DNA of 64,000 nt, from NCBI RefSeq assembly GCF_000975095.1, contig NZ_BBRD01000001.1, positions 1,073,467-1,137,466 of the forward strand, written 5' to 3'. Position numbers and translations under genes: made by a program. Under the pieces are notes generated by a model. It saw only the letters and a program-made list of their open reading frames with translations. It was not told where the DNA came from and made no database searches. Shown here one piece after another: positions 23,230 to 36,019 of this stretch. This DNA comes from Demequina aestuarii. GTDB lineage: Bacteria; Actinomycetota; Actinomycetes; Actinomycetales; Demequinaceae. Position 1 is the stretch's first letter. Every line of letters begins with the position of its first letter.

Positions 23230-24297
23230 TCAGTCGGAGGTGCGAAGGACCGCGAGCACCTCGTCGTCAGAGGTGGGGGAGAAGTCCCGGTACCACTGGC
23301 CGACGGACGTGAACGGCTCGGGAGTCATGGCAGCGATCGCGCGGTCCGCGTGGCGCCCGAGCATCGCGAGGACATCGGGGGGCGCGGTGCCCACCGCGAC
23401 CAGCACACGCGCGGCTCCCATGGTCCGTGCGACCGCGATCGCCGCCTGTGCGGTCGCTCCGGTGGCGGAGCCGTCGTCCACGATGATCGCCGTGCGTCCC
23501 GTGAGCGTGAGTGCGGGCCGACCGGCACGGTAGACGGCGACGCGACGGGCCAGCTCCCGGCGCTCCGCGGCCACGACCGCCGCCACCTCCGACTCGACCA
23601 GGTCCGCGGCCGCCACGATGCGCTCGTCGATCAGAGGCTCGCCGCCCTCTCCGATCGCACCGAACGCGTATTCGGGATTCGACGGCAGCCCGAGCTTGCG
23701 CACCACGAGCACGTCGAGTGAGCAGGACAGCGCACGGGCGATCGGCGCGGCCACCGGCACCCCTCCCCGGGGCAGGGCGAGCACGGTGGGCCTCGCCGGG
23801 GCGAGCGCCGCGAGCACCGGAGCGAGTCGTTCTCCTGCTTCGACGCGATCCGCCAGCACCTCGGGGGCGCGGCGGGCAGTCGCGACGGGGTCGGTCATCA
23901 CGTCTGCCCAACGCTCCACCGAGGCGAGGTGCTCCCGATCCTTGGGGCGACCGAGGCGGCGCTTGTAGGCCACCACGTCCGCGAGAGAAGCGACGCGCAC
24001 CCCGTCGACGTTCGCGCTGCGAGCGATGACGGCATCGGCTGGTTCCCCCCGCCACCCCGAGAAGACCTGGATGCCTCCCGGGAGGTCGACGTAGTGATCA
24101 CCGAGCTCTCCGGCGTGCACCTTCCCCCGAGCCGCGAGGCGCTCCCAGGCGTCGCCGCGGGCCACGATGTCGACGTCCCCGATCTCGGCGATCACGCCGT
24201 GGGCGAGCAGCGGGCCGCTGCCAGTGAGGACGATGTCCTGATGTGGAACGTCCAAGGACCGCACCGCATCGATGACGTCTCTCCATGTCAGGCCCAT
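23230..24297 (-). CDS. Nucleotidyltransferase-like domain fused to a phosphoribosyltransferase
   Basis: A 355-residue two-domain protein. Residues 1-135 resemble a minimal nucleotidyltransferase fold (VLTGSGPLLAHG, then DVDIV with Asp41 and Asp43; later YKRRLGRPKDREHL, as in toxin-antitoxin and DUF6036-like NTases). Residues 150-355 are a type I phosphoribosyltransferase with the PRPP loop IIVDDGSATGAT (271-282) and ALPRGGVPVA. The phosphoribosyltransferase half resembles stand-alone actinobacterial PRTases of unknown substrate (Rv0571c-like). I do not know this fusion from characterised enzymes. The start is set by minus-strand TAGCGT 6 nt upstream of the ATG. Confidence 0.75.
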   Translation of the reverse strand: MGLTWRDVIDAVRSLDVPHQDIVLTGSGPLLAHGVIAEIGDVDIVARGDAWERLAARGKVHAGELGDHYVDLPGGIQVFSGWRGEPADAVIARSANVDGVRVASLADVVAYKRRLGRPKDREHLASVERWADVMTDPVATARRAPEVLADRVEAGERLAPVLAALAPARPTVLALPRGGVPVAAPIARALSCSLDVLVVRKLGLPSNPEYAFGAIGEGGEPLIDERIVAAADLVESEVAAVVAAERRELARRVAVYRAGRPALTLTGRTAIIVDDGSATGATAQAAIAVARTMGAARVLVAVGTAPPDVLAMLGRHADRAIAAMTPEPFTSVGQWYRDFSPTSDDEVLAVLRTSD

Positions 24298-24344: not shown

Positions 24345-25421
24345 TCATGAGCGCAGCGCCGCCGTCACTGCGGCGCCGATCTCCGCCTCCGCCTCCGCGA
24401 ACTCGAGCTCCTTCCCCGCGCCGGGCCCGCCGGACAGGTCCACGCCGACCACGCCAGGGATCGTGAGGAACTCCAGCGCGAGTCGCGACGCCGCCGCGAC
24501 GCCCTGAGCGCGAACGTTCCGAGCCTCGAGGATGCCGTACAGGTATCCGTCGGGGAGCGCCAGGGACGTGAATCCCCGAATCAGCTCCGCACTCCCGCGA
24601 TCCACGATCACCGGCACGCAGGGGATGAAGCCCATCGTCACCCCCAGGTTCTGAGCGCGCTCGATGAATGCGCGCACCGGCTCGGGGCCGCCAGCGTGGT
24701 TGACGAAGCAGACCTCGGCGCCGGCACGCTGCTTCTCGAGGAGGCGCGCGGGGCGCGACTCGACAGGCGGCGACAGTGGGGCCTCCGCCACCGACACGAG
24801 GTGCCCTCGAGACGCCATCATCGCCGCAAGCCGCGTCGAGTCGAGGTCGAACACGGGCGCGGCATCCGGGCGAGAGCCGATCCCGGTGTGGTCACCTGTC
24901 ACGCAGTGCACGCCCGCGGCCCCTGCGTGAGCGAGAGCGGCGGCCTCGCCCTCGAGCGCCACCCGGTTGCGATCCCTGGCGTTCACTCCCATCCACGCGT
25001 CGACGCCCGCGTCGCTCAGCAGCCGGGCACGGTATGCGGGAGGGAACTGCACCCGTGCGGTGCCGGAGTCGCCCGCGAGCACCGCATCGACCGAACCCGA
25101 CAGGGCCCGAGCGCACGCCGACAGCGACTCGGCGTCCAGGGCGCGGGCGGGGAAGTCGGCGATCACGACGCCGCCGGTGGCCAGCCGCTCGCGCATGAGC
25201 GAGGCGGCCGGGGGAGGCGCCACGTGTCCGGCCGGGTCGGCGGGCAGCGCGCCGCGCCAGCGCACGGGGGCCAGCGATAGGAAGGAGCACGCGTGGTCGG
25301 CGACCTCGCACCTGCCGGAGAACTCCACCCCGCCGCAGGGCCCGTACTCCATGTGCTTGGGACAGCCTGCCGCACCGGTGGCGGGCGAGGGGGCCGGCGA
25401 TGAGCTCGGGCTACCCGGCAC
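24345..25421 (-). CDS. MTHFR-like protein with N-terminal zinc/cysteine MTHFR_C-type motif
   Basis: A 358-residue protein. Residues 18-50 carry CPKHMEYGPCGGVEFSGRCE plus a further Cys (Cys20, Cys29, Cys38, Cys45), the motif of the methylenetetrahydrofolate reductase C-terminal family (MTHFR_C). Residues 75-358 resemble a MetF-type barrel: VIADFPARAL at the start, VHCVTGDHTGIGS in the FAD/folate region, and GFIPCVPVIV later. In this family the Cys motif usually sits in a separate or C-terminal unit; here it is N-terminal. It is the last gene of the accessory operon and overlaps the previous gene by 11 bp. Likely role: oxidising or reducing a folate-bound one-carbon unit released by the pathway (inference). 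Confidence 0.65.
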   Translation of the reverse strand: MPGSPSSSPAPSPATGAAGCPKHMEYGPCGGVEFSGRCEVADHACSFLSLAPVRWRGALPADPAGHVAPPPAASLMRERLATGGVVIADFPARALDAESLSACARALSGSVDAVLAGDSGTARVQFPPAYRARLLSDAGVDAWMGVNARDRNRVALEGEAAALAHAGAAGVHCVTGDHTGIGSRPDAAPVFDLDSTRLAAMMASRGHLVSVAEAPLSPPVESRPARLLEKQRAGAEVCFVNHAGGPEPVRAFIERAQNLGVTMGFIPCVPVIVDRGSAELIRGFTSLALPDGYLYGILEARNVRAQGVAAASRLALEFLTIPGVVGVDLSGGPGAGKELEFAEAEAEIGAAVTAALRS

Positions 25422-26001
25422 GGAAGGTCGCCTCCCAACCGCCGTCCGTCGCGACGTACTCGACTCTGCGCGAGGCGGTGTCGGCAGCGCCGATCCAGAA
25501 GCGCAGCAGGCGTGGGCGCACCACGTAGCCAGTCCACGACCCCGGTGGAGAGAAGCCGCCGGTGTGCTCGGTCGAGAACCGCGCCCACTGCCTGGTGCGC
25601 GACGCGTCGTCGGCGGCGGCGAACTCGGGGGTGTTCATCCACGCGAGCTGCTGCAGGTACGGGCCACGATCGCGGTAGGCCTGGGCGATCTCCGCCGCCG
25701 GTGCGGCGTCGGCCGTGCCCTGAACCACCAGCTGCCGGCTCTGCTCGGCGAGCAGGATCGTCAGGGAGACTCGCGCATCGGCCGCAATCTGCGCGCACTT
25801 GCGTGACAGGGCATCCGTGTGGAAGTGGAAGCCGTCACGGGTGACCTCCGACAGCAGCATGGTGCGCGAGTCAGGGGCGCCCTCGTCGAGCGTCGAGAGT
25901 GTCATGAGGCACTGATTCGCGCCGCCCGGCAGCCAGTCGAGCGCCAGATCCATCGGGTCGCTCGGAAAGCCCCGCGCGATCGGGTCGTCGCCCGCCGTCA
26001 C
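25411..26001 (-). CDS. Pyridoxamine 5'-phosphate oxidase-like flavoprotein
   Basis: A 196-residue protein of the PNPOx split-barrel family: SRTMLLSEV and GFHFHTDALSRKCAQI (FMN-phosphate contacts), then GSWTGYVVRPRLLRFWIGAADTASRRVEY at the C-terminus. The C-terminal PdxH signature RLHDR, whose Arg and His contact the vitamin substrate, is replaced by TASRR, so vitamin B6 is probably not the substrate. Its start overlaps the creatininase stop by 4 bp and its end overlaps the MTHFR-like gene. It is expected to bind FMN and act on an amine or another product of the same pathway. Confidence 0.75.
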   Translation of the reverse strand: MTAGDDPIARGFPSDPMDLALDWLPGGANQCLMTLSTLDEGAPDSRTMLLSEVTRDGFHFHTDALSRKCAQIAADARVSLTILLAEQSRQLVVQGTADAAPAAEIAQAYRDRGPYLQQLAWMNTPEFAAADDASRTRQWARFSTEHTGGFSPPGSWTGYVVRPRLLRFWIGAADTASRRVEYVATDGGWEATFRAG

Positions 26002-26774
26002 GCGCCACCGCCCGCGGGGTCGAAGCGCGAGATCTCCTCCAGCGACTCGACGGCGATTCGGACGAAGTCTTCGGCGACGCTCGCGCCCGCGCTGGCATCG
26101 GCGCGGGTGGGGTCACCGAGAACCCCGTCGAAACCGAAGTCGTCGCTCAGCCACCCGAACTGCACCGGAGCCCCCGCGAAGCCGATGTGCCGATAGTCGG
26201 CCAACCCCTCGGGGATGGCACGGGTGGCGCTGCCGTGCGCGACCAGGTCCGGCCGCAGGTGCATCATGAGCGAGGTCTCGCCCCAGCCGCCGTGGATGCC
26301 CAGGCCCGACTCCTCGGGGGCGCTCGGCACCGCCACCGACAGCGAGAAGGTGCGCAGGTCGTAGAGCCGACGCAGCTCTCGCAGTGCGACTCCGAGAGGG
26401 GCGACGTTGCCGCCGTGACCGTTGATGAGCACGAGCGTCCTGGCTGGCGTGCGCGCCAGCGACCGTCCGATGCCGCGCAGGGTGGCGAGAAGCTCGTCCG
26501 CGCCGATCCAGAACGTGCCAGGCGCCCAGTCGTGCTCGTCCGACTTGGTGTAGGCGAGCGGGGGCAGGCGCCACACGTCGAGCCCAGCCTGGGCGGCCTC
26601 GTCGACGGCTCGAGCGGACATCTCATCGGCCATGATCAGGTCGGTGGCCACCGGCAGGTGCGAGCCGTGGTGCTCGATCGAGCCCACCGGCAGCACCACG
26701 ATCGACGTGGCAGTGAGGGTGGCGTTCAGGGCCGGTCCGCTCAGCTCTGCGAGCTCACGGGAGGAGGCGCTCAC
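25998..26774 (-). CDS. Creatininase-family amidohydrolase
   Basis: A 258-residue metal hydrolase of the creatinine amidohydrolase family. The metal-binding pattern is complete: VGSIEHHGSHLPVATD (Glu34, His36, Asp45), NGHGGN (His120) and HGGWGETS (Glu166). Members open cyclic amides (creatinine), or act on formamides and mycofactocin precursors, so substrate is open. The GTG start at 26774 overlaps the FAD-oxidase stop (GTGA) and its own stop overlaps the next start. No mycofactocin genes are present, which argues against an MftE role. In this operon it probably hydrolyses an amide or lactam intermediate. Confidence 0.87.
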   Translation of the reverse strand: MSASSRELAELSGPALNATLTATSIVVLPVGSIEHHGSHLPVATDLIMADEMSARAVDEAAQAGLDVWRLPPLAYTKSDEHDWAPGTFWIGADELLATLRGIGRSLARTPARTLVLINGHGGNVAPLGVALRELRRLYDLRTFSLSVAVPSAPEESGLGIHGGWGETSLMMHLRPDLVAHGSATRAIPEGLADYRHIGFAGAPVQFGWLSDDFGFDGVLGDPTRADASAGASVAEDFVRIAVESLEEISRFDPAGGGA

Positions 26775-28108
26775 ATCTGCGTCCCGGTGTACTCCGACGC
26801 CCTCGCGCCCAATTTGCCGGGGTTGAGCAGCCCCTGCGGGTCCGTGACGGCCGCGAGCGCAGCAGCGCGTTCTGGCTCGAAGTCGACGGCCCACTGGTGC
26901 GGATTGTGGGTCTGGACGCCGAGCGCGGCCAGGCGATCGAAGCCGGCGAGGACGTCCGCAGCTGAGGTGTACCGCGCGGCCAGCATGCCGATGGGGCGGC
27001 CCCGCTGCGCCTCGATGTGGAGCATCGCGTCGGGGTACACGGACTCGACCCCCGCGAGGTCGTCCACGAGCGCGTCGCCGAGCACCTCGAGGTGGAAGTA
27101 CTCGCCCGGCGCGGACTTCTGCAGCCACTCGATCGGATGGTTGTACGAGTTCATGGACAGCTTGACGGTGTGCTGGGCGCCTTCGCGCACGTCGTCCACC
27201 CGTCCGCCCGCCTCGTTGACCAGGCGAGTCGCCTCGTCGATCGTCGCCTCATCCAGGATGGCTCTCAGCGACGCGCGTCCTGCCGGGATGCCGAGATCGC
27301 TCGGGAGGGTGCCGGCAATGCGTGCCCGGTCGCCGGACACCAGGCGCGGGGTGGGGTCAAGCGCGGCGAATGGGCGCATGAGCGACACCACCTGCTCGAA
27401 GGTGTCGAAGCTGGCGAGGAACGCCCGCCACGGCTGCAGGGGTTCCGTGGCGACGCGGACCTTCGTGAGGATGCCAGTGGTGCCGTACGCATGCAGGTAG
27501 GGGATGGCGTCCTCGCCTTCCATCCATTCGGGCTCGGAGTCGGGCACGGCGCGGATGACCTCGACGGCGGTGACGAAGCCCTGGTGGAGCAGCCCGTTGG
27601 CGATCGACCCGGTGCCGCCCGAGCCGCCCGAGACGAAACCGCCCACGGTCGTCTGCGCGGTCGACGGGTACATCCACAGCTGGCGGCCGGCGCGGTTCGC
27701 CGTCTGTTCCAGCATCCACATCACTGCGCCTGACTCGGCCTCGATGTAGTCGTCGCCGACCTCGAGGACACGGCGCGCTCGGCTGGTGTCGAGCACCAGG
27801 CCGCCGGCCATCGGAATGCCTTGGCCGTAGTTGCCCGTGCCTTTGCCGCGGGGGGTGATGGGGACCTCGTGTCTCACGGCCGCACCGACGGCCACCGCGA
27901 TATCCGCGGCGGACGTGGGAGTGACGACGATCTGCGCCTGGCCGAGCGGAAGGAGCTCGGTGATGACGGGGGACAGATGAGAGCCGTCGATGGAGGCTCG
28001 TGCGAGGGCGGCGGCGTCGGTCGTCACGACATCCGCGCCGAGTGCTGCAACGAGGTCGGCGACGAGAGCGTCGATACGGTCGGCGTCGACTGAGGCGAGG
28101 TCGGTCAT
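26771..28108 (-). CDS. FAD-linked oxidase (VAO/PCMH type)
   Basis: A 445-residue flavoenzyme of the GlcD/vanillyl-alcohol-oxidase type. The N-terminal PCMH FAD-binding domain (about 55-235) includes PITPRGKGTGNYGQ, the pyrophosphate-binding loop, and TVGGFVSGGSGGTGSI. The C-terminal half is the substrate cap, ending in PQGLLNPGKLG, a typical terminal motif. It would oxidise an alcohol, 2-hydroxyacid or amine. The ATG follows AAGGAG. It begins 45 bp after the SDR gene and overlaps the creatininase gene, so it is an internal member of the accessory operon. Substrate unknown. Confidence 0.88.
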   Translation of the reverse strand: MTDLASVDADRIDALVADLVAALGADVVTTDAAALARASIDGSHLSPVITELLPLGQAQIVVTPTSAADIAVAVGAAVRHEVPITPRGKGTGNYGQGIPMAGGLVLDTSRARRVLEVGDDYIEAESGAVMWMLEQTANRAGRQLWMYPSTAQTTVGGFVSGGSGGTGSIANGLLHQGFVTAVEVIRAVPDSEPEWMEGEDAIPYLHAYGTTGILTKVRVATEPLQPWRAFLASFDTFEQVVSLMRPFAALDPTPRLVSGDRARIAGTLPSDLGIPAGRASLRAILDEATIDEATRLVNEAGGRVDDVREGAQHTVKLSMNSYNHPIEWLQKSAPGEYFHLEVLGDALVDDLAGVESVYPDAMLHIEAQRGRPIGMLAARYTSAADVLAGFDRLAALGVQTHNPHQWAVDFEPERAAALAAVTDPQGLLNPGKLGARASEYTGTQM

Positions 28109-28153
28109 GGGGAAGATGCTCCTTGTAGCGCGGGGACGGTGAACGGTGGGGCG

Positions 28154-28906
28154 TCAGTGCATGACCATGCCGCCGGTGAGATTGAGCGCCTGGCCGGTGA
28201 TGTAGCTCGCGGCATCGCTGGCCAGGTACGCGGCGAGCTCTGCGACATCCGCGGGAGCACCGAGGCGACCCAGCGGTGAGCGGGACGACCATTCGGCGAC
28301 CTGGTCGGCGGTGCGCGTGGCTGCGCCCATCTCGGTCAGCACGTAGCCGGGACAGATGGCGTTGACGCGGATGCCGTGCGGACCCCATTCGAGAGCGGCG
28401 GCGCGGGTCAGCGCCACGACGGCGGCCTTGGAGGCGGCATAGTGGGCCTCCATGGCGCCGCCCGACTTCGCGGCCATGGATGCGAGGTTGATGATCACGC
28501 CGCCATCGCCGGCGATCATCTGGCGCGCCGCGCTCTGCATGGTGAGGAGCGTGGCCCTGGCGTTGATGTCCACCATCGCATCCCAGGCCGCGACGTCGAT
28601 GTCCAGCAGCGGCGAGAGCGCGAAGATGCCGGCGGAGTTCACCAGCACGTCGAGCCCGCCCAGACCATCGATCGCCTCTGCCATCGCCCGCGACGTGTCT
28701 GCCGGATCGGTCAGGTCCACTGCGACGGCGATTCCCCCGCAGGCGAGGGCCGTCTGATCGGCCGGGAGCCGGTCCATGATTGCGACGTGAGCGCCTTCGC
28801 GCGCGAGGTGAGTGGCGATGGCGGCGCCGATCCCACGCGCCCCTCCGGTGACGATGGCACGACGCGCCGTGTGGCGGTTCGAGGTCGGCACCGGAGGGGC
28901 GGTCAT
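28154..28906 (-). CDS. Short-chain dehydrogenase/reductase
   Basis: A 250-residue classical SDR: TGGARGIG cofactor motif (21-28), NSAG, and the YAASK catalytic Tyr/Lys, with the C-terminal ITGQALNLTGG typical of FabG-like enzymes. It oxidises or reduces an alcohol/ketone with NAD(P). It sits between the transporter genes and the FAD oxidase in the accessory operon, with a GGAG ribosome-binding site, so it probably acts on the imported compound or an alcohol made from it. Confidence 0.9.
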   Translation of the reverse strand: MTAPPVPTSNRHTARRAIVTGGARGIGAAIATHLAREGAHVAIMDRLPADQTALACGGIAVAVDLTDPADTSRAMAEAIDGLGGLDVLVNSAGIFALSPLLDIDVAAWDAMVDINARATLLTMQSAARQMIAGDGGVIINLASMAAKSGGAMEAHYAASKAAVVALTRAAALEWGPHGIRVNAICPGYVLTEMGAATRTADQVAEWSSRSPLGRLGAPADVAELAAYLASDAASYITGQALNLTGGMVMH

Positions 28907-28937
28907 GGTTGCTCCGTAGGGGTGGAAGGGAAGGGGA

Positions 28938-30143
28938 TCAGGAACCGAGCGAGATGGACTCGTCGATGAACTCGTTCGTGTACAGGTCCTCGGGAGTCAG
29001 ACCCTCGGCGACCTCGATGCCCTGCTCCGCGTAGATGGGCTCGACGATGTCGAAGAGTTCCGCCACTCGCTCAGCGTCGAACGTGCCGAGCACACCGTCC
29101 GGCCCGTCGGAGGCGATGCCGTCGGCGAGCATGGTGTCGAACGAGTAGTCAGCGACGTCAGCGGAGTAGACCCAGCCGGTGTCGAACGCCTCGACCAGTT
29201 CGAGCACGAGCGACTTCACGGACTCCTTGAGGGTGCCGTCGTAGTAGTCGACCTCGGCCTGCTGCATGATCGGCACGAGCTGCTCGAGGCAGTCGGCATA
29301 CTCGGTGACGTCATCGGGACGCACGGACATGGACGCTGCGTACTTGGGATAGCCCGCGTCGTTGATCAGCTGGTAGCCGATCGGCTTGCCCCAGTCCGCG
29401 ACCTCGTTCTCGTAGATGAAGGGCTCTGCGGACGCGAAGCCCTGCTGAGCGATCGCACCGTTCTCCGAGACGAAGACCGCCGGAGTGCCGTCGTAGGTGG
29501 TGTCGATCTGTGCCTCGTCGAGCACGCCCGTGCCCACGAAGTAGTCGATGTACACGCCGCCGGGGAACACGCGGACGGTGGTGCCCTCATCCCCCAGGTC
29601 GGCGATGCCGTCGACGTCGGGATAGGTCTCGGGATCCCACATGATCATCTGCGGGTCCTTCTCGAGCGGCTGGAAGACCGACACGGTGGGCAGGTCCACC
29701 GAGTGCGCGATCGCCTCGTCGGTGCCCACGTACGCCATGAAGATGGACTCGTCGGAGTACAGCTGGGCGTTCGGCTGCGCGAAGCCGACCGCCGGGCCGC
29801 CGGAGAGCACGGTGACGTCGACGCCGGTGTCCTGGCCCGAGGCCATCAGGGGGCCGGTCACGGACTTGTTGTTGGAGTCGACCTCGTACTCGTCGCCCAA
29901 CAGCGCGTACAGGTGGCCGTGCTCCATCTCGGGGTTCCAGTCGGTCTGGATCCTGATGTCGGCGGGGCAGATCGCCGCCAGGTCGACTGAGCCGTCCGCG
30001 CTCGCTGACGAGGTGCCGGAGGGGGCGGGGGAGCCGGTAGTGTCGTCCGGCTCTTCCTCGGCGCCCGGGCTGCACGCGGCGAGGGTGAGGGCGGTCACGG
30101 CGACGCCTGCGAGGACGATGCCGCTTCTAGGGTGGACTCGCAT
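28938..30143 (-). CDS. ABC-type substrate-binding lipoprotein (NMT1/THI5/TauA-like)
   Basis: A 401-residue extracytoplasmic solute receptor. It starts with a lipoprotein signal ending in LTLAAC with Cys24 as the lipid-attachment site, then a Ser/Thr/Asp-rich linker and a type II periplasmic-binding fold (RIQTDWNPEMEHGHLYALLG, then GGPAVGFAQPNAQ). This subfamily brings in thiamine precursors, taurine, nitrate and similar small nitrogen or sulfur compounds. It is the third ABC component after the ATPase and permease of the same operon, with an AAGGAG ribosome-binding site. Ligand unknown. Confidence 0.9.
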   Translation of the reverse strand: MRVHPRSGIVLAGVAVTALTLAACSPGAEEEPDDTTGSPAPSGTSSASADGSVDLAAICPADIRIQTDWNPEMEHGHLYALLGDEYEVDSNNKSVTGPLMASGQDTGVDVTVLSGGPAVGFAQPNAQLYSDESIFMAYVGTDEAIAHSVDLPTVSVFQPLEKDPQMIMWDPETYPDVDGIADLGDEGTTVRVFPGGVYIDYFVGTGVLDEAQIDTTYDGTPAVFVSENGAIAQQGFASAEPFIYENEVADWGKPIGYQLINDAGYPKYAASMSVRPDDVTEYADCLEQLVPIMQQAEVDYYDGTLKESVKSLVLELVEAFDTGWVYSADVADYSFDTMLADGIASDGPDGVLGTFDAERVAELFDIVEPIYAEQGIEVAEGLTPEDLYTNEFIDESISLGS

Positions 30144-30194
30144 GCTGAGCTCCTTCTGGGTGGGGTGGGGACAGGTGGTAGCGACGGCGGCGGG

Positions 30195-31010
30195 TCAGCC
30201 GAAGTCGTACCACTTTCCGACGGCTCTCTTGCCGAGCCAGCCGAAGATGAGGAAGATCGCCACGCCCAGGAGAGAGGCGACCAGAACGGAGGCGAAGAGT
30301 TCCTCCGACAACAGGCGTGCGCTGTACTTGTTGATGAGCGAGCCGAGGCCAGGAGTGCCGCGCTGGAAGAAGAACTCCCCGACGATGGCACCGACGACAG
30401 CCAGTCCCGCCGAGATGCGCATCCCAGCGAAGATGGCGGGCATGGCCGCCGGCATCGACAGCTTGGCGAGGACGGTCGACCGGGAGGGCCCTTGCAGCAT
30501 GAAGAGCTCGCGCATCGACTTGTCGACCGACTGCAGCCCGAACAGGGTGTTGGACACCATCGGAAACAGCGCGATGATCACGCAGACGACGACGCGGGCC
30601 GTGAAGTCGTACCCGAACCAGAACCCGATCAGCGGAGTGATCGCGAGGATGGGGATCGCCTGCAGCATCACTGCGTAAGGGAACAGTGCGCGCTCGGCCC
30701 ACCTGGCCTGGTTCATGATGATCGCCCACGTCACACCGATCACGATGGCGATCGCGAGCCCCGTGAGCGACACCACCGTGGTGCGCCACAGCGCCGTCCA
30801 GATCTCAGGGGCCGACGTGGGATCCCACAGCTTCTCCAGCACCTGGTGCGGCTGTGGCAGCAGGAAGCTGCGCTGCCCGAGGGCCGCGTTGCCCAGGTAG
30901 GCGGCGGTGACGAGCAGCGCGGCGAGAGCGAGTGGCGGCCCCCACTGTCCCACCCCCGACGCGTCGCGCCGGCGCTGGGCCGGTGCGGGAACGGTATCTG
31001 CCGTGGTCAT
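30195..31010 (-). CDS. ABC transporter permease
   Basis: A 271-residue inner-membrane subunit of the taurine/nitrate/thiamine-precursor importer class with about six helices (N-terminal helix about 29-46, then about 78-245). The EAA-like loop MRELFMLQGPSRSTVLAKLSMPAAMPAIFAGMRI is in place for contact with the ATPase. Start and the preceding ATPase stop overlap by one base (TGATG). It should form the translocation pathway for the lipoprotein encoded downstream. Confidence 0.92.
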   Translation of the reverse strand: MTTADTVPAPAQRRRDASGVGQWGPPLALAALLVTAAYLGNAALGQRSFLLPQPHQVLEKLWDPTSAPEIWTALWRTTVVSLTGLAIAIVIGVTWAIIMNQARWAERALFPYAVMLQAIPILAITPLIGFWFGYDFTARVVVCVIIALFPMVSNTLFGLQSVDKSMRELFMLQGPSRSTVLAKLSMPAAMPAIFAGMRISAGLAVVGAIVGEFFFQRGTPGLGSLINKYSARLLSEELFASVLVASLLGVAIFLIFGWLGKRAVGKWYDFG

Positions 31011-31765
31011 CAGTGGGCCTCCCTGAGTGCGTGAGAGATGGTGCCGACGAGCTCCGCGAACTCAGCGCTGAACCTGACCTCCGGGTCTCGCGGCACGTCG
31101 AAGGGCACGTCGTATTCGGCGACGAGGGTGCCGGGGCGGCCGGACATCACCACCACGCGAGTCGAGAGGTAGACGGCTTCAGCGACGGAGTGGGTGATGA
31201 ACAGCCCCGCGAACTGCTTCTCGTGGAACAGCCGGATCAGCTCGTCGTTGAGCCGTTGGCGCGTGATCTCGTCGAGGGCGCCGAACGGTTCGTCGAAGAG
31301 GAACACCTCGGGGTTGAGGGTGAGAGAGCGTGCCAGCGACGCGCGCATGCGCATGCCGCCCGAGAGCTGCCGCGGGAGGTGCTCCTCGAAGCCCTTCAGC
31401 CCCACCAGGTCGATCGCCTCCTGAGCCGATGCGGTGCGCCGCGTGCGACCCTCGCCGTGCAGCTCAGCAAGGAGTTCCACGTTGCGACGCGTCGTACGCC
31501 AGGGCAGCAGGGTCGGGTCCTGGAACACGTAGCCGATCCGGTCCGTCGCGAGCCCGACGTCGCCCTCGGTGGCGTTCTCGAGCCCCGAGGCGATGCGCAG
31601 CAACGTCGACTTGCCGCAGCCGGAGGGGCCCACGACCGAGACGAACTCTCCGCGCCGTACGGTCAGATCGACGGAGTGAAGGGCGACGGTGCCGTCCGGG
31701 AACGCCATTGCGACGTCACGGAAGGACAGGAGCGACGCGCGCTCCGTCGTGGGGGCAGTGCTCAT
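31010..31765 (-). CDS. ABC transporter ATP-binding protein
   Basis: A 251-residue ATPase with Walker A GPSGCGKST (43-51), Q-loop (VFQDPTLLPW), signature LSGGMRMRASLARSL, Walker B VFLFDEPFGALD and the H-loop THSVAEAV. The type matches SsuB/TauB/ThiZ ATPases. Its ATG overlaps the amidohydrolase stop (ATGA) and its stop overlaps the permease start, so all are translated together. Confidence 0.95.
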   Translation of the reverse strand: MSTAPTTERASLLSFRDVAMAFPDGTVALHSVDLTVRRGEFVSVVGPSGCGKSTLLRIASGLENATEGDVGLATDRIGYVFQDPTLLPWRTTRRNVELLAELHGEGRTRRTASAQEAIDLVGLKGFEEHLPRQLSGGMRMRASLARSLTLNPEVFLFDEPFGALDEITRQRLNDELIRLFHEKQFAGLFITHSVAEAVYLSTRVVVMSGRPGTLVAEYDVPFDVPRDPEVRFSAEFAELVGTISHALREAH

Positions 31766-33006
31766 CGGGCAGTCTCCGGGGAAGGGGTGAGCGATGGGTA
31801 GGTGACACTGGTGGTCGAGCGTGAGACCACTGAGCCGTGATGGATCACGACCCGGTCGGCCGGGGCCTCGGCGACGGCCTCGATCAAGCTGTGCGCCTTG
31901 ACCGCGAGCAGGTCCGCCGCGGCCCCGGGGGTCGGCCCGGCGGGCGGCAGGGCCATCACCTCGCGCGCACCGTGAGAGACGGCGGTGAACGCCTCCTCGA
32001 CGTCCAGATGCGCGGCGACGACCAGCAGCATTGCCGTCTCGAGGGCATCGGAGCGGCCCAGCGGGTTGAACGGGTCGCGCACGTTGTCAGCGCCGGCCGC
32101 GAAGCGCGCGCCCGCATCGAGGAGCTGGCGGGCGGCCGTCAGTCCCCGAGGCGTGGCGACCTCGTGGTTCCAGCCCTGCAGGTAGAGATTGGTGATCGGG
32201 TTGGCGATGATGCCGATGCGGGAGCGCACCACCGCGGCGATGAGTTCGTCGCGGTGAGCCGGCTCGAGGGTGCCGAGTCGGACGCAGTGGCCGGCCGAGA
32301 CGTTGCGCGTCCAGCCGTGCGTGCGCTCCGCGAGGGCTCCCAAGGTGACGGCCTCATCGAGCGACTCGTCGGTGTGCATGTCCAGCACGCAGTCGCGCCT
32401 GGCCGCGATCTCCACGAACCGGTCGAGCTCGGTGAGCGGCTCCGGGGCGAGGTGAGCGGCGCCGCCGACGCCGTCGGCGCCCGCGTCGAGCGCTGTCTCG
32501 ATGACGGCCGTCGGGACGTCGTCGGAGGCCAGGGCGATGATTTCAATGTCCATGACGTCGCGGAGCATGTCGCGGACCTCCACCAGGGCATGGATGCCTC
32601 GCAACGGCTGCGGTCCCCGCAGCACGTCCACGTGGGTGCGGATAGCGGTGGTGCCGTGGCGGAGGTTGCGGAGCGCCTGGTCGTGCGCGCGGGCGACGAT
32701 GTCGTCAGTGCTCATGTGGTCCGCGTACGCCCGCCAGCTGGCGATGGCCGCGCGCAGATCGCCCATCGGCGGGGTGATCGCGTCCCAGGACCGGGCCTTG
32801 TCCAGGTGAGCATGCGGGTCGGCTGTAGCCGCCAGCAGAAGGTGACCGTCGAGGTCGAGCACGCTGCTGGAGTCGGTCGGCACCGGGGCGGTCCCGGCCG
32901 TCGCGACATCCACCACCAGGCCGTCGGCGATCGACACGTCCACGGCGCTGCCGTCGGCCAGTCGAGCGCCGCGGATCAGCGTGGGACGCTCCCCGGATGG
33001 TGGCAT
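31762..33006 (-). CDS. CodA-type amidohydrolase (cytosine deaminase family)
   Basis: A 414-residue metal-dependent amidohydrolase, first gene of the accessory operon. The metal and catalytic site is complete: ADPHAHLDK (His65, His67), HTDE (His211, Glu214), AGHC (His240), and ADNVRDPFNPLG (Asp307). This is the pattern of E. coli CodA and of related ring-hydrolysing enzymes for creatinine or triazine-type rings, so the substrate is a cyclic amidine or amide, not necessarily cytosine. The start at 33006 is preferred because AAGGAG sits 6 nt upstream and the family begins there. A palindromic operator lies immediately upstream. Confidence 0.88.
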   Translation of the reverse strand: MPPSGERPTLIRGARLADGSAVDVSIADGLVVDVATAGTAPVPTDSSSVLDLDGHLLLAATADPHAHLDKARSWDAITPPMGDLRAAIASWRAYADHMSTDDIVARAHDQALRNLRHGTTAIRTHVDVLRGPQPLRGIHALVEVRDMLRDVMDIEIIALASDDVPTAVIETALDAGADGVGGAAHLAPEPLTELDRFVEIAARRDCVLDMHTDESLDEAVTLGALAERTHGWTRNVSAGHCVRLGTLEPAHRDELIAAVVRSRIGIIANPITNLYLQGWNHEVATPRGLTAARQLLDAGARFAAGADNVRDPFNPLGRSDALETAMLLVVAAHLDVEEAFTAVSHGAREVMALPPAGPTPGAAADLLAVKAHSLIEAVAEAPADRVVIHHGSVVSRSTTSVTYPSLTPSPETAR

Positions 33007-33032
33007 CGAGCACTCCTTGAGAATGGGCATAA

Positions 33033-33056
33033 TGTTGATCACATCAACAATGTTGA
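33033..33056. promoter_or_regulatory. Overlapping palindromic operator of accessory operon
   Basis: Two perfect palindromes share a half-site: TGTTGAT-CAC-ATCAACA (33033-33049) and TCAACA-A-TGTTGA (33044-33056). Three alternating half-sites in the divergent region between the CodA-type gene and the XRE-cupin gene suggest a repressor site controlling both transcripts. The adjacent XRE-cupin protein is the natural candidate binder. Confidence 0.7.
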
Positions 33057-33163: not shown

Positions 33164-33772
33164 GTGGCATCACCCGAAGGCACGCCCGAGCAGCGAGAGC
33201 AGGCGCGGGAGCTCGGTCAGCGCTTGCGCGCGCTGCGGCGAATGCGGGGCATGACCCTCGTCCAGCTCGCCGAGAAGGCGGAGCTGTCCCACTCGTTCCT
33301 GTCGCAGATCGAGCGCGGTCGGGCGATGCCCAGCATCGGTTCACTGGGACGCATCGCGCACGCAGTCGGGACCTCTCAGATCGAGTTGCTCACGCCGCCG
33401 AGCGCCCCCACTCGCTCGAACGTGGTGCCCACCGCTGCCGCGCCGCGTGGCACCTATGGCGACGAGGCGGCTCGTCTGCTGGTGACCCACGCCGGGGCTC
33501 GGTTCCGCCCACTGTCGCTCACGGGATTCAGCCAAGAGTTTGGAGAGCCGTACTCTCACGCGGAGCACGAGTTTCTGCACGTGATCTCGGGACGAGTCGA
33601 GGTCGAGATCGACGGTGAGGTCAGCGTCCTCGACGAGGGCGACTCGGTCTACTACGGCTCCGACGTGCCGCACCGCTGGCGGGCCGCCGATGATCAAGGA
33701 TTCCACGCCATCGTGGTCAAGGAGCAGCCCGCTGCGTCCCGCACCGCACCGTCCGCTCAGGAGGCCCCGTGA
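33164..33772 (+). CDS. XRE-family regulator with C-terminal cupin domain
   Basis: A 202-residue regulator. Residues 18-73 form an XRE-type helix-turn-helix (MTLVQLAEKAELSHSFLSQIERGRAMPS). Residues 110-190 form a cupin_2 ligand-binding domain (EHEFLHVISGRVEVEIDGEVSVLDEGDSVYYGSDVPHRWRA). The GTG at 33164 follows AAGGAGG at 5 nt. It is divergent from the operon, with the palindromic operator between them, and it overlaps the reductase gene by 4 bp. It probably controls the accessory operon in response to the substrate (inference); related XRE-cupin proteins such as PuuR act in this way. Confidence 0.9.
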   Translation: MASPEGTPEQREQARELGQRLRALRRMRGMTLVQLAEKAELSHSFLSQIERGRAMPSIGSLGRIAHAVGTSQIELLTPPSAPTRSNVVPTAAAPRGTYGDEAARLLVTHAGARFRPLSLTGFSQEFGEPYSHAEHEFLHVISGRVEVEIDGEVSVLDEGDSVYYGSDVPHRWRAADDQGFHAIVVKEQPAASRTAPSAQEAP

Positions 33773-34719
33773 CCCCGCCCACCTCAGCCATCGACGTCAC
33801 CGTCGCCTCCCGCGCGGTGACGGGAGACGTGGTCGTGCTCGACCTCGCCGGCGCCGACGGGGCCCCGTTGCCCACGTGGACGGCCGGTTCCCACATCGAC
33901 GTGCTCATGCCCGAAGGCGTGGTCCGCCAGTACTCGCTGTGCGGCGACCCGGACGACGACAGGTGGCGCATCGCCGTGCTGCGTGAGGCTGACGGCCGCG
34001 GCGGGTCGCGATGGCTCGCGGACCACGCACTCGTCGGCACCGCCCTGCAGGTGGTGGGGCCACGCAACCACTTCGCGTTCGAGACGGACGGGGGCCCGGT
34101 GCTGCTGCTGGCGGCGGGAATCGGAGTGACGCCGCTGTGGTCGATGGCGGCCGAGGCGGCCCGCGACGGCATCGACTATCGGCTCCGCTACTCCGGATCC
34201 AGCCGCGCCTCCATGGCGCTGGTCCGCGAGTTGACGGCGGCGCACGGTGATCGCTGCTCCCTGCATGTCTCGGACGAGGGGACCCGACTGGACCTGGACG
34301 CCGCGTTCGCGGAGGCGACCACGGGCACCGTCGCCTACGCGTGCGGACCTCGCCGGTACCTGGAGGCCGTAGAGGCCGCAGCGGGGGCTCATGACGTGCC
34401 GCTGCGTGTCGAGCACTTCACGCCGGTGGAAGTCGACGAGCCGGTGCTCCACGACACATTCGAGGTCGAGCTCGCGATGACGGGGATCACCGTGGAGGTG
34501 CCGCCCGATCAGTCCATCCTCGCAGCGGTCGAGGAGCACGGCGTCCTCGTGCTGTCGAGCTGCACCGAGGGCACGTGCGGGACGTGTGAGACACCCGTGC
34601 TCGCGGGAGAGGTCGACCACCGCGACTCGATCCTCACGCCCGCCGAGCGTGAGCGCAACGACGTGATGTACGTCTGTGTGTCGCGTGCGGCGTGCCCGCG
34701 ACTCACCCTCGACCTGTGA
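33769..34719 (+). CDS. VanB-type class IA oxygenase reductase (FMN, [2Fe-2S])
   Basis: A 316-residue electron-transfer protein with the fused order flavin domain, NAD domain and C-terminal plant-type ferredoxin, as in vanillate O-demethylase reductase VanB and phthalate reductase. Motifs: RQYSLCGDPDD (FMN site), LLAAGIGVTPL (NAD site), YACGPRRYLEAV, and SSCTEGTCGTCETPVL plus a later Cys for the iron-sulfur cluster. Such reductases feed Rieske oxygenases, but no Rieske oxygenase gene lies in this window. GTG start overlaps the regulator stop. It may reduce a partner encoded elsewhere. Confidence 0.9.
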   Translation: MTPPTSAIDVTVASRAVTGDVVVLDLAGADGAPLPTWTAGSHIDVLMPEGVVRQYSLCGDPDDDRWRIAVLREADGRGGSRWLADHALVGTALQVVGPRNHFAFETDGGPVLLLAAGIGVTPLWSMAAEAARDGIDYRLRYSGSSRASMALVRELTAAHGDRCSLHVSDEGTRLDLDAAFAEATTGTVAYACGPRRYLEAVEAAAGAHDVPLRVEHFTPVEVDEPVLHDTFEVELAMTGITVEVPPDQSILAAVEEHGVLVLSSCTEGTCGTCETPVLAGEVDHRDSILTPAERERNDVMYVCVSRAACPRLTLDL

Positions 34720-36019
34720 TGCGAGCCGTCATCGTGGCCACCAGGTCGGGCTCGGCGGCGCGCACGAGCGCGTAGTCGCGGACCACGACCTGCCCGTCGA
34801 CGATGACGTGCCGCGGTCGCCTGCCAGGAGAGGCCCACAGCAGGCCCGCGACGGGGTCGGCGACGCCGGCATCGGCGACCCCCGAGACGTCCCACACGCA
34901 CGCATCGGCCGCGGATCCTGACGTGAGTCGGCCCAGTTCGCTGCGGCCGAGGCCGTCGGCGGAGCCGGCGGTCGCCATGGCCAGGACGTCGCGCGCCCTC
35001 AGCTGCGGCCCGACGAGAGCCGAGACCTGCAGCGCGAGCCGAGCGTCGGCGAGCAGATGCCCGGCGTCGTTGGAGCCGCCGCCGGACGTGCCGAGGCCGA
35101 CTGTCACCCCGGCTTGTCGCAGGGCCCTCACGGGGGCGATCCCCCAACCCATCGGCACATCGCACCCCGGGGCGTGGGTCGCGCTCACGCCGGCCGCTGC
35201 GAGCCGCGCGATCTCAGGCTCCGTCACGTCACACAGGTGGGCGATCGTGACGTCGGGGGAGAGCCAGCCCCATTCCTCGAGCAGGTCGAGAGGACGCCGA
35301 CCGTACGTCGAGAGGGCGATCTCCGTGTCGACCTGCTCGTTGGCCTGCGTGCGGCGGCGCAGCCCATGCGTGGACGCCACCTCTCCCAACAGGCGGAAGG
35401 TCGCCTCAGCGTCCGAGTGCACGCCCGCGGGCCCGACGGCCAGCTGCAGCATGCCGTCGGCACGCACCCCGCGTGTGTGGGAGGGCAGGATGGCGGTGAC
35501 GATCGCCTCTGCGCTCGACGCGGCCCGCTCCGGGTCGTCGCGAGCCGCGCCGCGGACGAAGGCGAGCCGGCCACCCAGGGCGAGGGCCGCATCGGCCGTT
35601 GCCCTCACGATCTCGACATGGGTGTCGATCGACCCCTCCGAGGGCCACGTCAGGTGGTGGTCCGCGACGGTGGTGACGCCGTTCAGCAGCCCCTCCGCGA
35701 TCCCGACGGAGGCCGATGCGGAGGCCAGCGATGCGTCCACGCGTGCGCGGTCGTAGGAGGATGCCATGGTCGGCAGCCACTCTCGCATCGGCACCCCACG
35801 TGTGCCGGGCAGGGTGCGGAACGCGCTCTGCAGCAGATGGTGATGGGCGTTGACGAGGCCCGGGGTGACGACGCAGCCTGAGACGTCCAGCGTCTCGTGG
35901 CCGTGCCACGCGGAGGTGTCAGGCGCCACCCGACCGTCCACGAAGGCGAGATCGCCCGTGCGATCACTGGCCGCGTCGTGTGGATCGACGACGATGCAGA
36001 GGGCGTCCGTGAGCAACAT
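34703..36019 (-). CDS. TrzN/AtzB-like amidohydrolase
   Basis: A 438-residue amidohydrolase-superfamily protein of the hydroxydechloroatrazine ethylaminohydrolase/8-oxoguanine deaminase branch. It has NAHHHLLQ (His59, His61) and AHLCD (His261). The beta-5 position, usually His in HxxE, is Gln225 in QANE (Glu228 is kept). The beta-8 metal Asp is replaced: GLGTSGGGSND has Thr311-Ser312 there. From memory TrzN has Thr at the beta-8 position, so the loss need not inactivate the enzyme. Other substrates, such as guanine-like rings or isocytosine, are possible. Its end overlaps the convergent reductase gene by 17 bp. The start has a poor ribosome-binding site. Confidence 0.75.
   Translation of the reverse strand: MLLTDALCIVVDPHDAASDRTGDLAFVDGRVAPDTSAWHGHETLDVSGCVVTPGLVNAHHHLLQSAFRTLPGTRGVPMREWLPTMASSYDRARVDASLASASASVGIAEGLLNGVTTVADHHLTWPSEGSIDTHVEIVRATADAALALGGRLAFVRGAARDDPERAASSAEAIVTAILPSHTRGVRADGMLQLAVGPAGVHSDAEATFRLLGEVASTHGLRRRTQANEQVDTEIALSTYGRRPLDLLEEWGWLSPDVTIAHLCDVTEPEIARLAAAGVSATHAPGCDVPMGWGIAPVRALRQAGVTVGLGTSGGGSNDAGHLLADARLALQVSALVGPQLRARDVLAMATAGSADGLGRSELGRLTSGSAADACVWDVSGVADAGVADPVAGLLWASPGRRPRHVIVDGQVVVRDYALVRAAEPDLVATMTARITGRG

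Follow-up and report, generated by a model that had tools for sequence, protein, structure and literature searches.

Clusters for the N-demethylation (NdmABCDE) and C-8 oxidation of caffeine lead N-methylpurines towards purine catabolism, according to the part of PMC4408171 consulted here. The gene cluster of Demequina aestuarii described below resembles them in the N-methylpurine entry that we propose, in its NdmD-type reductase and, through one related cluster (L185), in an NdmA-like oxygenase. In contrast to NdmABCDE, it belongs to a genome that has no Rieske oxygenase, and it has transporter, deaminase, creatininase-family, PNPOx and MTHFR-like genes, none of which the consulted part of PMC4408171 mentions. 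Genes of the urate-allantoin island (XDH, uricase, HIUase, OHCU decarboxylase, allantoinase and allantoate amidohydrolase) neighbour the cluster in 33 of the 42 core loci, but none of the nine genes in the cluster's main run encodes a step of the known urate route, the cluster has a regulator and an operator of its own, and in D. aestuarii the island is about 390 kb distant. Two related loci resemble oxalurate (Hpx) catabolism: in L191 an HpxZ-type domain is fused to an amidase, and in L192 a gene for an amidase of the same family has the operator motif before it; the D. aestuarii cluster has no such gene. With the ThiXYZ-type importer of formylaminopyrimidine the identity is only 20%, and here catabolic genes share the run with the transporter.

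Searches of the open-access literature, outside which most subscription papers fall, brought up no account of a pathway that combines these genes, and the original prediction likewise knew of none. What is new here is the genomic setting beside purine catabolism. Every dying cell is a source of modified purines, of pterins and of what these break down to, and we know of no genes assigned to the bacterial routes for many of these compounds. The twelve genes, conserved as a unit and equipped with a dedicated operator, provide a short list of testable enzymes plus a receptor.

Organization of the locus

We analysed 64,000 nt (the window) of the D. aestuarii assembly GCF_000975095.1, contig NZ_BBRD01000001.1, positions 1,073,467–1,137,466 of the forward strand. 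Positions 24345–33006 hold nine complete minus-strand genes (Table 1), all with intact frames and a single, terminal stop, whose neighbours overlap or are separated by at most 51 bp. The distances (negative for overlaps) are −4 bp for CodA/ATPase, −1 for ATPase/permease, 51 for permease/SBP, 31 for SBP/SDR, 45 for SDR/FAD, −4 for both FAD/creatininase and creatininase/PNPOx, and −11 for PNPOx/MTHFR. The run proposed in the original prediction is thereby borne out, and its family labels hold at the Pfam/NCBIfam level except for the lipoprotein receptor, for which neither library has a matching model. A good start for the CodA-like gene is the ATG at 33006, preceded by AAGGAGT, so the previously assigned end of the run at 33056 takes in the operator.

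Three genes that belong with the nine-gene run had been overlooked (33164–36019). They encode a divergent regulator of the XRE-cupin type, a reductase of the ferredoxin type and a second amidohydrolase, and bring the unit to about twelve genes. Pattern scans found one promoter-like site on the plus strand (0.4 expected by chance) and one terminator-like site on the minus strand, within the permease gene (1.7 expected by chance).

Table 1. Features of the D. aestuarii cluster, in window coordinates
Feature	Position	Strand	Evidence
CodA-like amidohydrolase, 414 aa, first gene	31762..33006	-	best NCBIfam 189 bits vs cut-off 403
ABC transporter ATPase, 251 aa	31010..31765	-	PF00005
ABC transporter permease, 271 aa	30195..31010	-	PF00528
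Lipoprotein substrate-binding receptor (SBP), 401 aa	28938..30143	-	ThiY/Thi5-like predicted fold
Short-chain dehydrogenase (SDR), 250 aa	28154..28906	-	PF13561
FAD-binding oxidoreductase, FAD_binding_4 type, 445 aa	26771..28108	-	PF01565; nearest solved chain 6v42
Creatininase-family amide hydrolase, 258 aa, GTG start	25998..26774	-	PF02633 198 bits
PNPOx/PhzG-like flavoprotein, 196 aa, GTG start	25411..26001	-	PF01243
MTHFR-fold protein, N-terminal four-cysteine DUF5981 motif, 358 aa, GTG start	24345..25421	-	PF12225
Candidate palindromic operator TGTTGAT-CAC-ATCAACA, between CodA-like gene and regulator	33033..33049	.	motif
XRE-family regulator with cupin domain, 202 aa, divergent	33164..33772	+	HTH_31 + Cupin_2
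FMN/2Fe-2S reductase, phthalate-dioxygenase-reductase type, 316 aa	33769..34719	+	Fer2
Second amidohydrolase, 438 aa, nearest 8-oxoguanine deaminase / TrzN	34703..36019	-	PRK08203 247 bits

Operator and regulator

The single palindrome noted earlier ahead of the run was confirmed as a perfect 7-3-7 repeat, TGTTGATCACATCAACA, at 33033–33049, 26 bp upstream of the first gene. It is the sole match in the window at up to three mismatches (shuffled sequences average 0.39) and the sole exact site in the genome, where one other place matches with two mismatches. The motif ATGTTGAN5TCAACAT, with at most one mismatch, is found where the CodA-like gene starts in 26 of 34 loci, as against 10 of 740 random pieces, which may themselves contain true sites by chance; three of the 37 loci had less than 200 bp upstream and were left out. 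The eight loci without it are L029, L030, L032, L036, L042, L044, L053 and L090. The same motif precedes transporter genes in L069, L030 and L191 and a second deaminase gene in L095.

In all 24 loci that contain both genes, the XRE-cupin regulator is the divergent neighbour of the CodA-like gene, and in all 22 with both, the reductase gene follows the regulator gene, which it overlaps by 4 bp in D. aestuarii. We infer that the XRE-cupin protein would bind ATGTTGAN5TCAACAT and repress both divergent transcripts until a ligand, presumably bound by the same protein, arrives.

Conservation in related genomes

Relatives of the MTHFR-like gene were found in about twenty named genera. A search for the gene order in other genomes, a check named in the original prediction, shows that the module is widespread and that several pair orders are kept. 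We scanned the best 80 of 102 loci, calling genes with our own codon-usage script in place of a standard gene finder; because these loci share ancestry, the counts are not of independent events. All nine families occur together in 26 of these 80 loci. The order exceeds chance. Wherever both partners are present, ATPase and permease (42/42) and permease and SBP (44/44) are adjacent in the same order, and so are, in most cases, CodA and ATPase (35/40), SBP and SDR (27/33), SDR and FAD (26/37), FAD and creatininase (40/49) and creatininase and PNPOx (35/47). PNPOx and MTHFR are adjacent in that order in only 7 of 70 loci, which makes the MTHFR gene the loosest member. In L011, L012, L014 and L015, and in several of the loci scanned, the second amidohydrolase adjoins the cluster; its tally in the scan, 3 of 80, is low, since the gene often lies off the locus edge and the score limit was high. 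Short loci (L001–L010), L012 and L013 were left out when loci were clustered.

Hydrolases and transporter receptor

The CodA-like protein scores below the curated cut-offs of cytosine deaminase models (PRK07583, 188.9 vs 403; PRK09230, 132.9 vs 483). Two stretches of E. coli cytosine deaminase with substrate-binding roles differ in it: FPQEG aligns with LASDD, and GHDDVFDPW with GADNVRDPF, so that the DD pair is not conserved. It is probably an aminohydrolase but, by these substrate-side stretches, not a cytosine deaminase. The creatininase-family protein reaches the family-level model PF02633 (198 bits) but scores 72.1 bits against a cut-off of 235 for creatininase (TIGR04448); the MftE model (123 bits) is likewise below its cut-off. 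With such scores, and with FPQEG replaced, neither cytosine nor creatinine can be read from the gene names. Both were rejected as substrates named in this way, and the labels are family names only. More generally, annotation as "cytosine deaminase", "creatininase" or "methylenetetrahydrofolate reductase" in these genomes may mislead on substrate. The second amidohydrolase scores 246.9 bits with the 8-oxoguanine deaminase model PRK08203, below its cut-off of 532, and has solved relatives in 3ls9 and 7ww2.

The receptor has a predicted fold of the ThiY/NMT1 type, a pyrimidine-binding class, and among the families listed the nearest fold is that of the formylaminopyrimidine-binding protein 3ix1, although others may also fit. 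The model suggests a receptor of the aminopyrimidine-binding class with a putative ligand of that kind.

The MTHFR-fold protein

Of the 50 rows that Foldseek listed for the product of the ninth gene, 49 are MTHFR (best E 4.6e-10); its model is confident in the core but not in the N-terminal Cys region. A profile of the family found no match among PDB sequences at E 0.001, so it was the fold comparison that revealed the relationship. A genome-wide PF02219 search recovered only the canonical MetF (C6:78.7 kb), to which the cluster protein, encoded by a separate gene, is additional. The cluster protein resembles MetF/MTHFR and its divergent, GcvT-linked relatives from Actinomycetota in the MTHFR fold, which binds reduced folates, in the DUF5981 motif and in a retained TGD motif. 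In contrast to MetF, the cluster copy has no PF02219 match. The catalytic acid residues of E. coli MTHFR are Glu28 and Asp120; the cluster copy keeps the Asp of the TGD motif, and the Glu of MetF ELFPP falls in a gap beside an invariant Asp.

The relatives stand beside GcvT-type proteins in at least 10 of 30 loci, a lower bound because most of these loci span only 3–4 kb. The cluster, in contrast, has no GcvT partner: tblastn (E 1e-4) detected no GcvT-type gene in the 80 scan loci (best 80 of 102), and a GcvT-type demethylase was accordingly discarded as a member. In the whole D. aestuarii genome one protein is clearly GcvT; a further GCV_T match is weak and partial. The predicted fold suggests a one-carbon product; given the GcvT result, the passage of that carbon to folate, put forward in the original prediction, may at most be conjectured.

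Association with purine catabolism

For the purine tally, 66 of the 80 loci were at least 14 kb long, and 42 of these contained at least six of the nine families (core loci). At least one of eight purine-catabolism families lies within 10 kb of the MTHFR-like gene in 33 of the 42, a link that had been overlooked when the substrate was described as a cyclic nitrogen compound; uricase is that close in 30 and allantoinase in 31, and no purine gene is within reach in nine. Representatives of allantoinase, urate oxidase and allantoate amidohydrolase exceed their NCBIfam cut-offs. Among loci of at least 5 kb, the nine-gene run continues MTHFR-allantoinase-uricase in L017 and L038, as does, in L020 and L021, a shorter run whose transporter is encoded on the opposite strand. 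In Microbacterium (L066, L076) PNPOx leads a PNPOx-XdhB-XdhAC run.

In D. aestuarii itself the cluster (C6:1098–1109 kb) is not inside the purine island: uricase, XDH, allantoinase and a guanine-deaminase-like gene are found within C6:697–717 kb, the first three at C6:706–712 kb. Among the seven cluster-bearing Demequina genomes, the only ones counted for these two genes, XDH (PF02738) is present in all and allantoinase above cut-off in six. Uricase (PF01014) has no match in two of the seven (G012, G043) and is present in 20 of 40 other genomes searched in the family, so within the family the link is weak.

Proposed pathway and alternatives

The purine-catabolism setting of the loci leads us to read the module as serving uptake and catabolism of an amino-substituted, purine-like heterocycle that feeds the urate/ureide pathway, a reading to which we give close to an even chance. 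The substrate is most likely a modified (e.g., N-methylated) purine base or a close relative. We infer the reactions, and their order, as follows. The ThiY-like receptor and ABC transporter would import the compound, from which the CodA-like and 8-oxoguanine-deaminase-like enzymes may strip exocyclic amino or alkylamino groups. Oxidation steps would fall to the SDR, FAD oxidoreductase, PNPOx-like flavoprotein and 2Fe-2S reductase, and the opening of a cyclic amide to the creatininase-family hydrolase. The products would enter the xanthine-urate-allantoin route encoded elsewhere in the genome, and a one-carbon piece may be handled via folate by the MTHFR-fold protein. The original proposal, uptake and stepwise breakdown of a cyclic nitrogen compound, is supported in part. 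Possible, if more doubtful, is the wider claim of an undescribed, widespread actinobacterial pathway that would convert a modified purine, a pteridine or a ring-opened purine into standard intermediates, with C1 recovery through a divergent MTHFR-type protein and XRE-cupin control at a dedicated operator.

The MTHFR fold, the aminopyrimidine class of the receptor and the nearby purine genes would also suit catabolism of a pteridine (a folate fragment or pterin), whose ring would lose its amino group, undergo oxidation and contract to a derivative of xanthine that enters the urate route, with reduced pterins as the substrates of the MTHFR-fold and PNPOx-like proteins. Biochemical work of the 1960s described a pteridine-to-xanthine route, and the second amidohydrolase is related to 2paj, an isoxanthopterin deaminase. 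However, 2paj is only its twelfth-ranked solved relative (113 bits vs 207 for TrzN), no result points to a pterin-specific enzyme, and the literature on pterin and folate breakdown shows no such cluster among the matches listed; we consider this route unlikely. The same receptor evidence, 3ix1 being the nearest fold, could indicate a formamidopyrimidine, derived from a purine by ring opening or from thiamine by base degradation. The creatininase-family protein would then deformylate it as ArfB does, the CodA-like protein would deaminate the pyrimidine, further oxidation would give an oxalurate, and C1 would leave as formate or formamide or via folate. A gene named formamidase-like from its sequence occurs in six of the 80 loci (best 80 of 102) and in L191, L192 and L193, but it is missing from most loci and from the D. 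aestuarii cluster; the ArfB match, at 22 bits, is far under its cut-off of 180, and uricase adjacency is poorly explained, all of which makes this rather unlikely.

Creatinine, which the original prediction had offered as a growth test, or N-methylhydantoin would call for a CodA-like protein that deaminates creatinine, oxidation at C5 by the SDR and FAD proteins, opening of an N-methylparabanate-like ring to an oxalurate by the creatininase-family protein, and delivery of the methyl group to folate. Creatinine deaminases are indeed CodA relatives, and the HpxZ domain-amidase fusion of L191 and the operator motif before the same-family amidase of L192 fit an oxalurate product. Against it stand the low creatininase score, the proximity of uricase and allantoinase, which only common end products would explain, and the neighbour families listed, among which no creatinase or sarcosine oxidase was recognised; we hold it quite unlikely. 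It is also rather improbable that there is no single pathway and that the locus is a nitrogen-scavenging neighbourhood, its transporter-deaminase-oxidase set lying beside purine and folate genes that have no link to it but serve on the same diet. Several gene orders exist, and MTHFR and PNPOx often stand apart from the rest, adjacent to each other in so few loci; yet one operator, its exact site unique in the genome, serves the divergent unit, nine families occur together in 26 loci, and several pairs keep their order.

Redox proteins and oxygenase partners

The PNPOx-like flavoprotein scores 83 bits with the pdxH model, below the cut-off of 180, and has a solved relative in PhzG (1ty9). For the FAD protein, a paper on its solved relative 6v42 was not found in the open-access literature. 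Solved relatives of the reductase are 6laa, 7ylr, 2pia and 6icm (NdmD). A PF00355 search of the D. aestuarii genome found no ring-hydroxylating Rieske oxygenase, its three matches being a SUF-operon ferredoxin, a NirD-like protein and QcrA, and the same genome had no P450 match, so the reductase is without a recognised partner there and a classical Rieske or P450 oxygenase was set aside as a candidate. In a single genome (L185), a Rieske oxygenase gene lies between two amidohydrolase genes of a cluster that also encodes the reductase; the best solved relatives of this oxygenase are SxtDIOX and SxtT, followed by the methylxanthine demethylases NdmA and NdmB.

Gene content, extent and distribution of the cluster

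All nine minus-strand genes of the original prediction were found intact in the 2.79-Mb genome of Demequina aestuarii. They encode, from first to last, a CodA-like amidohydrolase, an ABC ATPase, a permease, a lipoprotein receptor, an SDR, an FAD oxidoreductase, a creatininase-family hydrolase, a PNPOx-like flavoprotein and an MTHFR-like protein, and neighbouring genes either overlap or leave a gap of no more than 51 bp. The CodA-like gene probably starts at the ATG at 33006 and not at 33056, the upper end of the range given earlier. The family labels assigned earlier agree with Pfam and NCBIfam, except for that of the lipoprotein receptor, which matched no family in either database. The nearest named relatives of the cluster proteins come from Demequina; the FAD protein, for instance, shares 91% identity with one from Demequina sp. 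SO4-13.

Of the family's 47 genomes, 7 clearly carry the MTHFR-like gene (E < 1e-87); one further match was weak. When one genome was scanned for each species, 102 loci with an MTHFR-like relative emerged, and the analysis used the best 80. Judged by their titles, these 80 come mainly from Microbacteriaceae genera, along with Demequina, Cellulomonas, Nocardioides, Aeromicrobium, Lapillicoccus and Ruania; 26 of them contain all nine families and 44 at least six. A class-wide sample of 394 genomes contained the receptor family in 42, and some of the 20 stretches inspected are reduced or altered clusters. In genome G010 (L007, L009, L015), the PNPOx and MTHFR-like copies seem disrupted by frameshifts or a stop codon; with a listed assembly completeness of 50%, sequencing error may be the cause.

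The unit is larger than first described, as it also includes genes for a regulator, a reductase and a second amidohydrolase (see table). The CodA-like and regulator genes are divergent neighbours in all 24 scan loci that have both, and the reductase gene adjoins that of the regulator in 22 of 22. A phosphoribosyltransferase-domain gene beyond the other end looks like an addition in D. aestuarii, because no relative was observed between the MTHFR-like and PyrD-like genes in L011, L012 or L015.

Features in and around the cluster (positions in the window)
Feature	Position	Strand	Context
Phosphoribosyltransferase-domain gene	23230-24297	-	47 bp downstream of MTHFR-like gene, same strand
Nine-gene run	24345-33006	-	
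Palindrome	33033-33049		
XRE-cupin regulator	33164-33772	+	upstream of CodA-like gene, divergent
FMN/2Fe-2S reductase	33769-34719	+	4-bp overlap with regulator gene
Second amidohydrolase	34703-36019	-	convergent, after reductase

Operator

The palindrome TGTTGATCACATCAACA has 7-bp arms and a 3-bp spacer; the consensus among relatives is ATGTTGAN5TCAACAT. Sequence sufficed in 34 loci for a test of the 360 bp surrounding the CodA-like start: the motif, with at most one mismatch, was present in 26 (16 perfect) and absent from eight, compared with its presence in 10 of 740 pieces drawn at random from these loci. The D. aestuarii genome has a single exact site and one further place with two mismatches. 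Other genomes have the motif, with no more than one mismatch, in front of transporter genes (L069, L030, L191), a second deaminase gene (L095), a cupin gene (L193) and an amidase gene (L192) as well. These sites look like a small dedicated regulon, and from its position the XRE-cupin protein would be the binder.

Association with purine catabolism

Clustering of neighbouring genes placed allantoinase, uricase, HIUase, OHCU decarboxylase, allantoate amidohydrolase and xanthine dehydrogenase (XDH) next to the cluster. Representatives of allantoinase, urate oxidase and allantoate amidohydrolase scored above NCBIfam cut-offs and that of XDH below; the other purine families were named from sequence. 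In 33 of the 42 core loci (at least 14 kb, with at least six of the nine families), one or more of eight purine-catabolism families lies within 10 kb of the MTHFR-like gene (uricase in 30, allantoinase in 31); none does in the remaining nine. The full run in L017 and L038, and a shorter one in L020 and L021, leads straight into allantoinase and uricase, while PNPOx heads a run with XDH in L066 and L076. In D. aestuarii, a purine island with uricase, a guanine-deaminase-like gene, allantoinase and XDH lies about 390 kb away. Among the seven cluster-bearing Demequina genomes, to which these two counts are confined, XDH was matched in all seven and allantoinase exceeded its cut-off in six. Inside the family the association is weak, because uricase occurs in only five of these seven and in 20 of 40 other genomes.

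On the best-supported reading, the cluster would import and degrade a modified purine-like heterocycle, feeding the urate/ureide route and releasing a one-carbon product. A pteridine, a formamidopyrimidine or creatinine/hydantoin as substrate, or a mixed neighbourhood, would be less probable readings. None of the hydrolases scored above the cut-offs for cytosine deaminase, creatininase or 8-oxoguanine deaminase, and the substrate-binding stretches of cytosine deaminase are altered in the CodA-like protein. The cluster is a conserved, uncharacterised variation on purine-type catabolism and no new class of system. Topical searches of open-access papers turned up no description of it, although one may be in print elsewhere.

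The reductase is similar both to reductases of the P450 and dioxygenase types and to NdmD of methylxanthine N-demethylation; neither a P450 nor a ring-hydroxylating Rieske oxygenase was found in the D. aestuarii genome. L185, the one such case among the loci searched, has a Rieske oxygenase gene between its two amidohydrolase genes. The best solved relatives of its product are SxtDIOX and SxtT, then NdmA and NdmB, consistent with a purine-like ring being hydroxylated or N-demethylated. AtzH-like/HpxZ-type domains, which in L191 share one reading frame with an adjoining amidase and in L186 accompany a metallo-beta-lactamase domain, tie related clusters to oxalurate breakdown.

MTHFR-like protein

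The family profile found no significant relative among PDB sequences, and the predicted core has the MTHFR fold (49 of the 50 matches listed); the model of the N-terminal four-cysteine region was not confident. Canonical MetF is encoded separately in D. aestuarii. Relatives elsewhere in the phylum adjoin GcvT-type proteins in 10 of 30 loci (L120-L125, L130, L132, L135 and L138, divergent relatives from Actinomycetota), and in three genomes (L117-L119, the same as L146-L148) they lie beside a class I methyltransferase-like protein. Such neighbours support a one-carbon role, and these loci are possibly further one-carbon modules. A search of the 80 scan loci revealed no GcvT-type gene.

PNPOx is followed by MTHFR in reading order in 7 of 70 loci with both. 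In many relatives the MTHFR gene adjoins allantoinase or diverges from a PNPOx-XDH run, and in Microbacterium loci, for example around 9923 in L066 and L076, the stretch between MTHFR and that run has an inverted motif that is conserved and different from the CodA-like operator, ATGTTGCCGCCATGAACAT. As the L065 uricase gene has a similar sequence, ATGTTTCCGCCATCAACAT, in front of it, control of both may lie with a single purine-type regulator.
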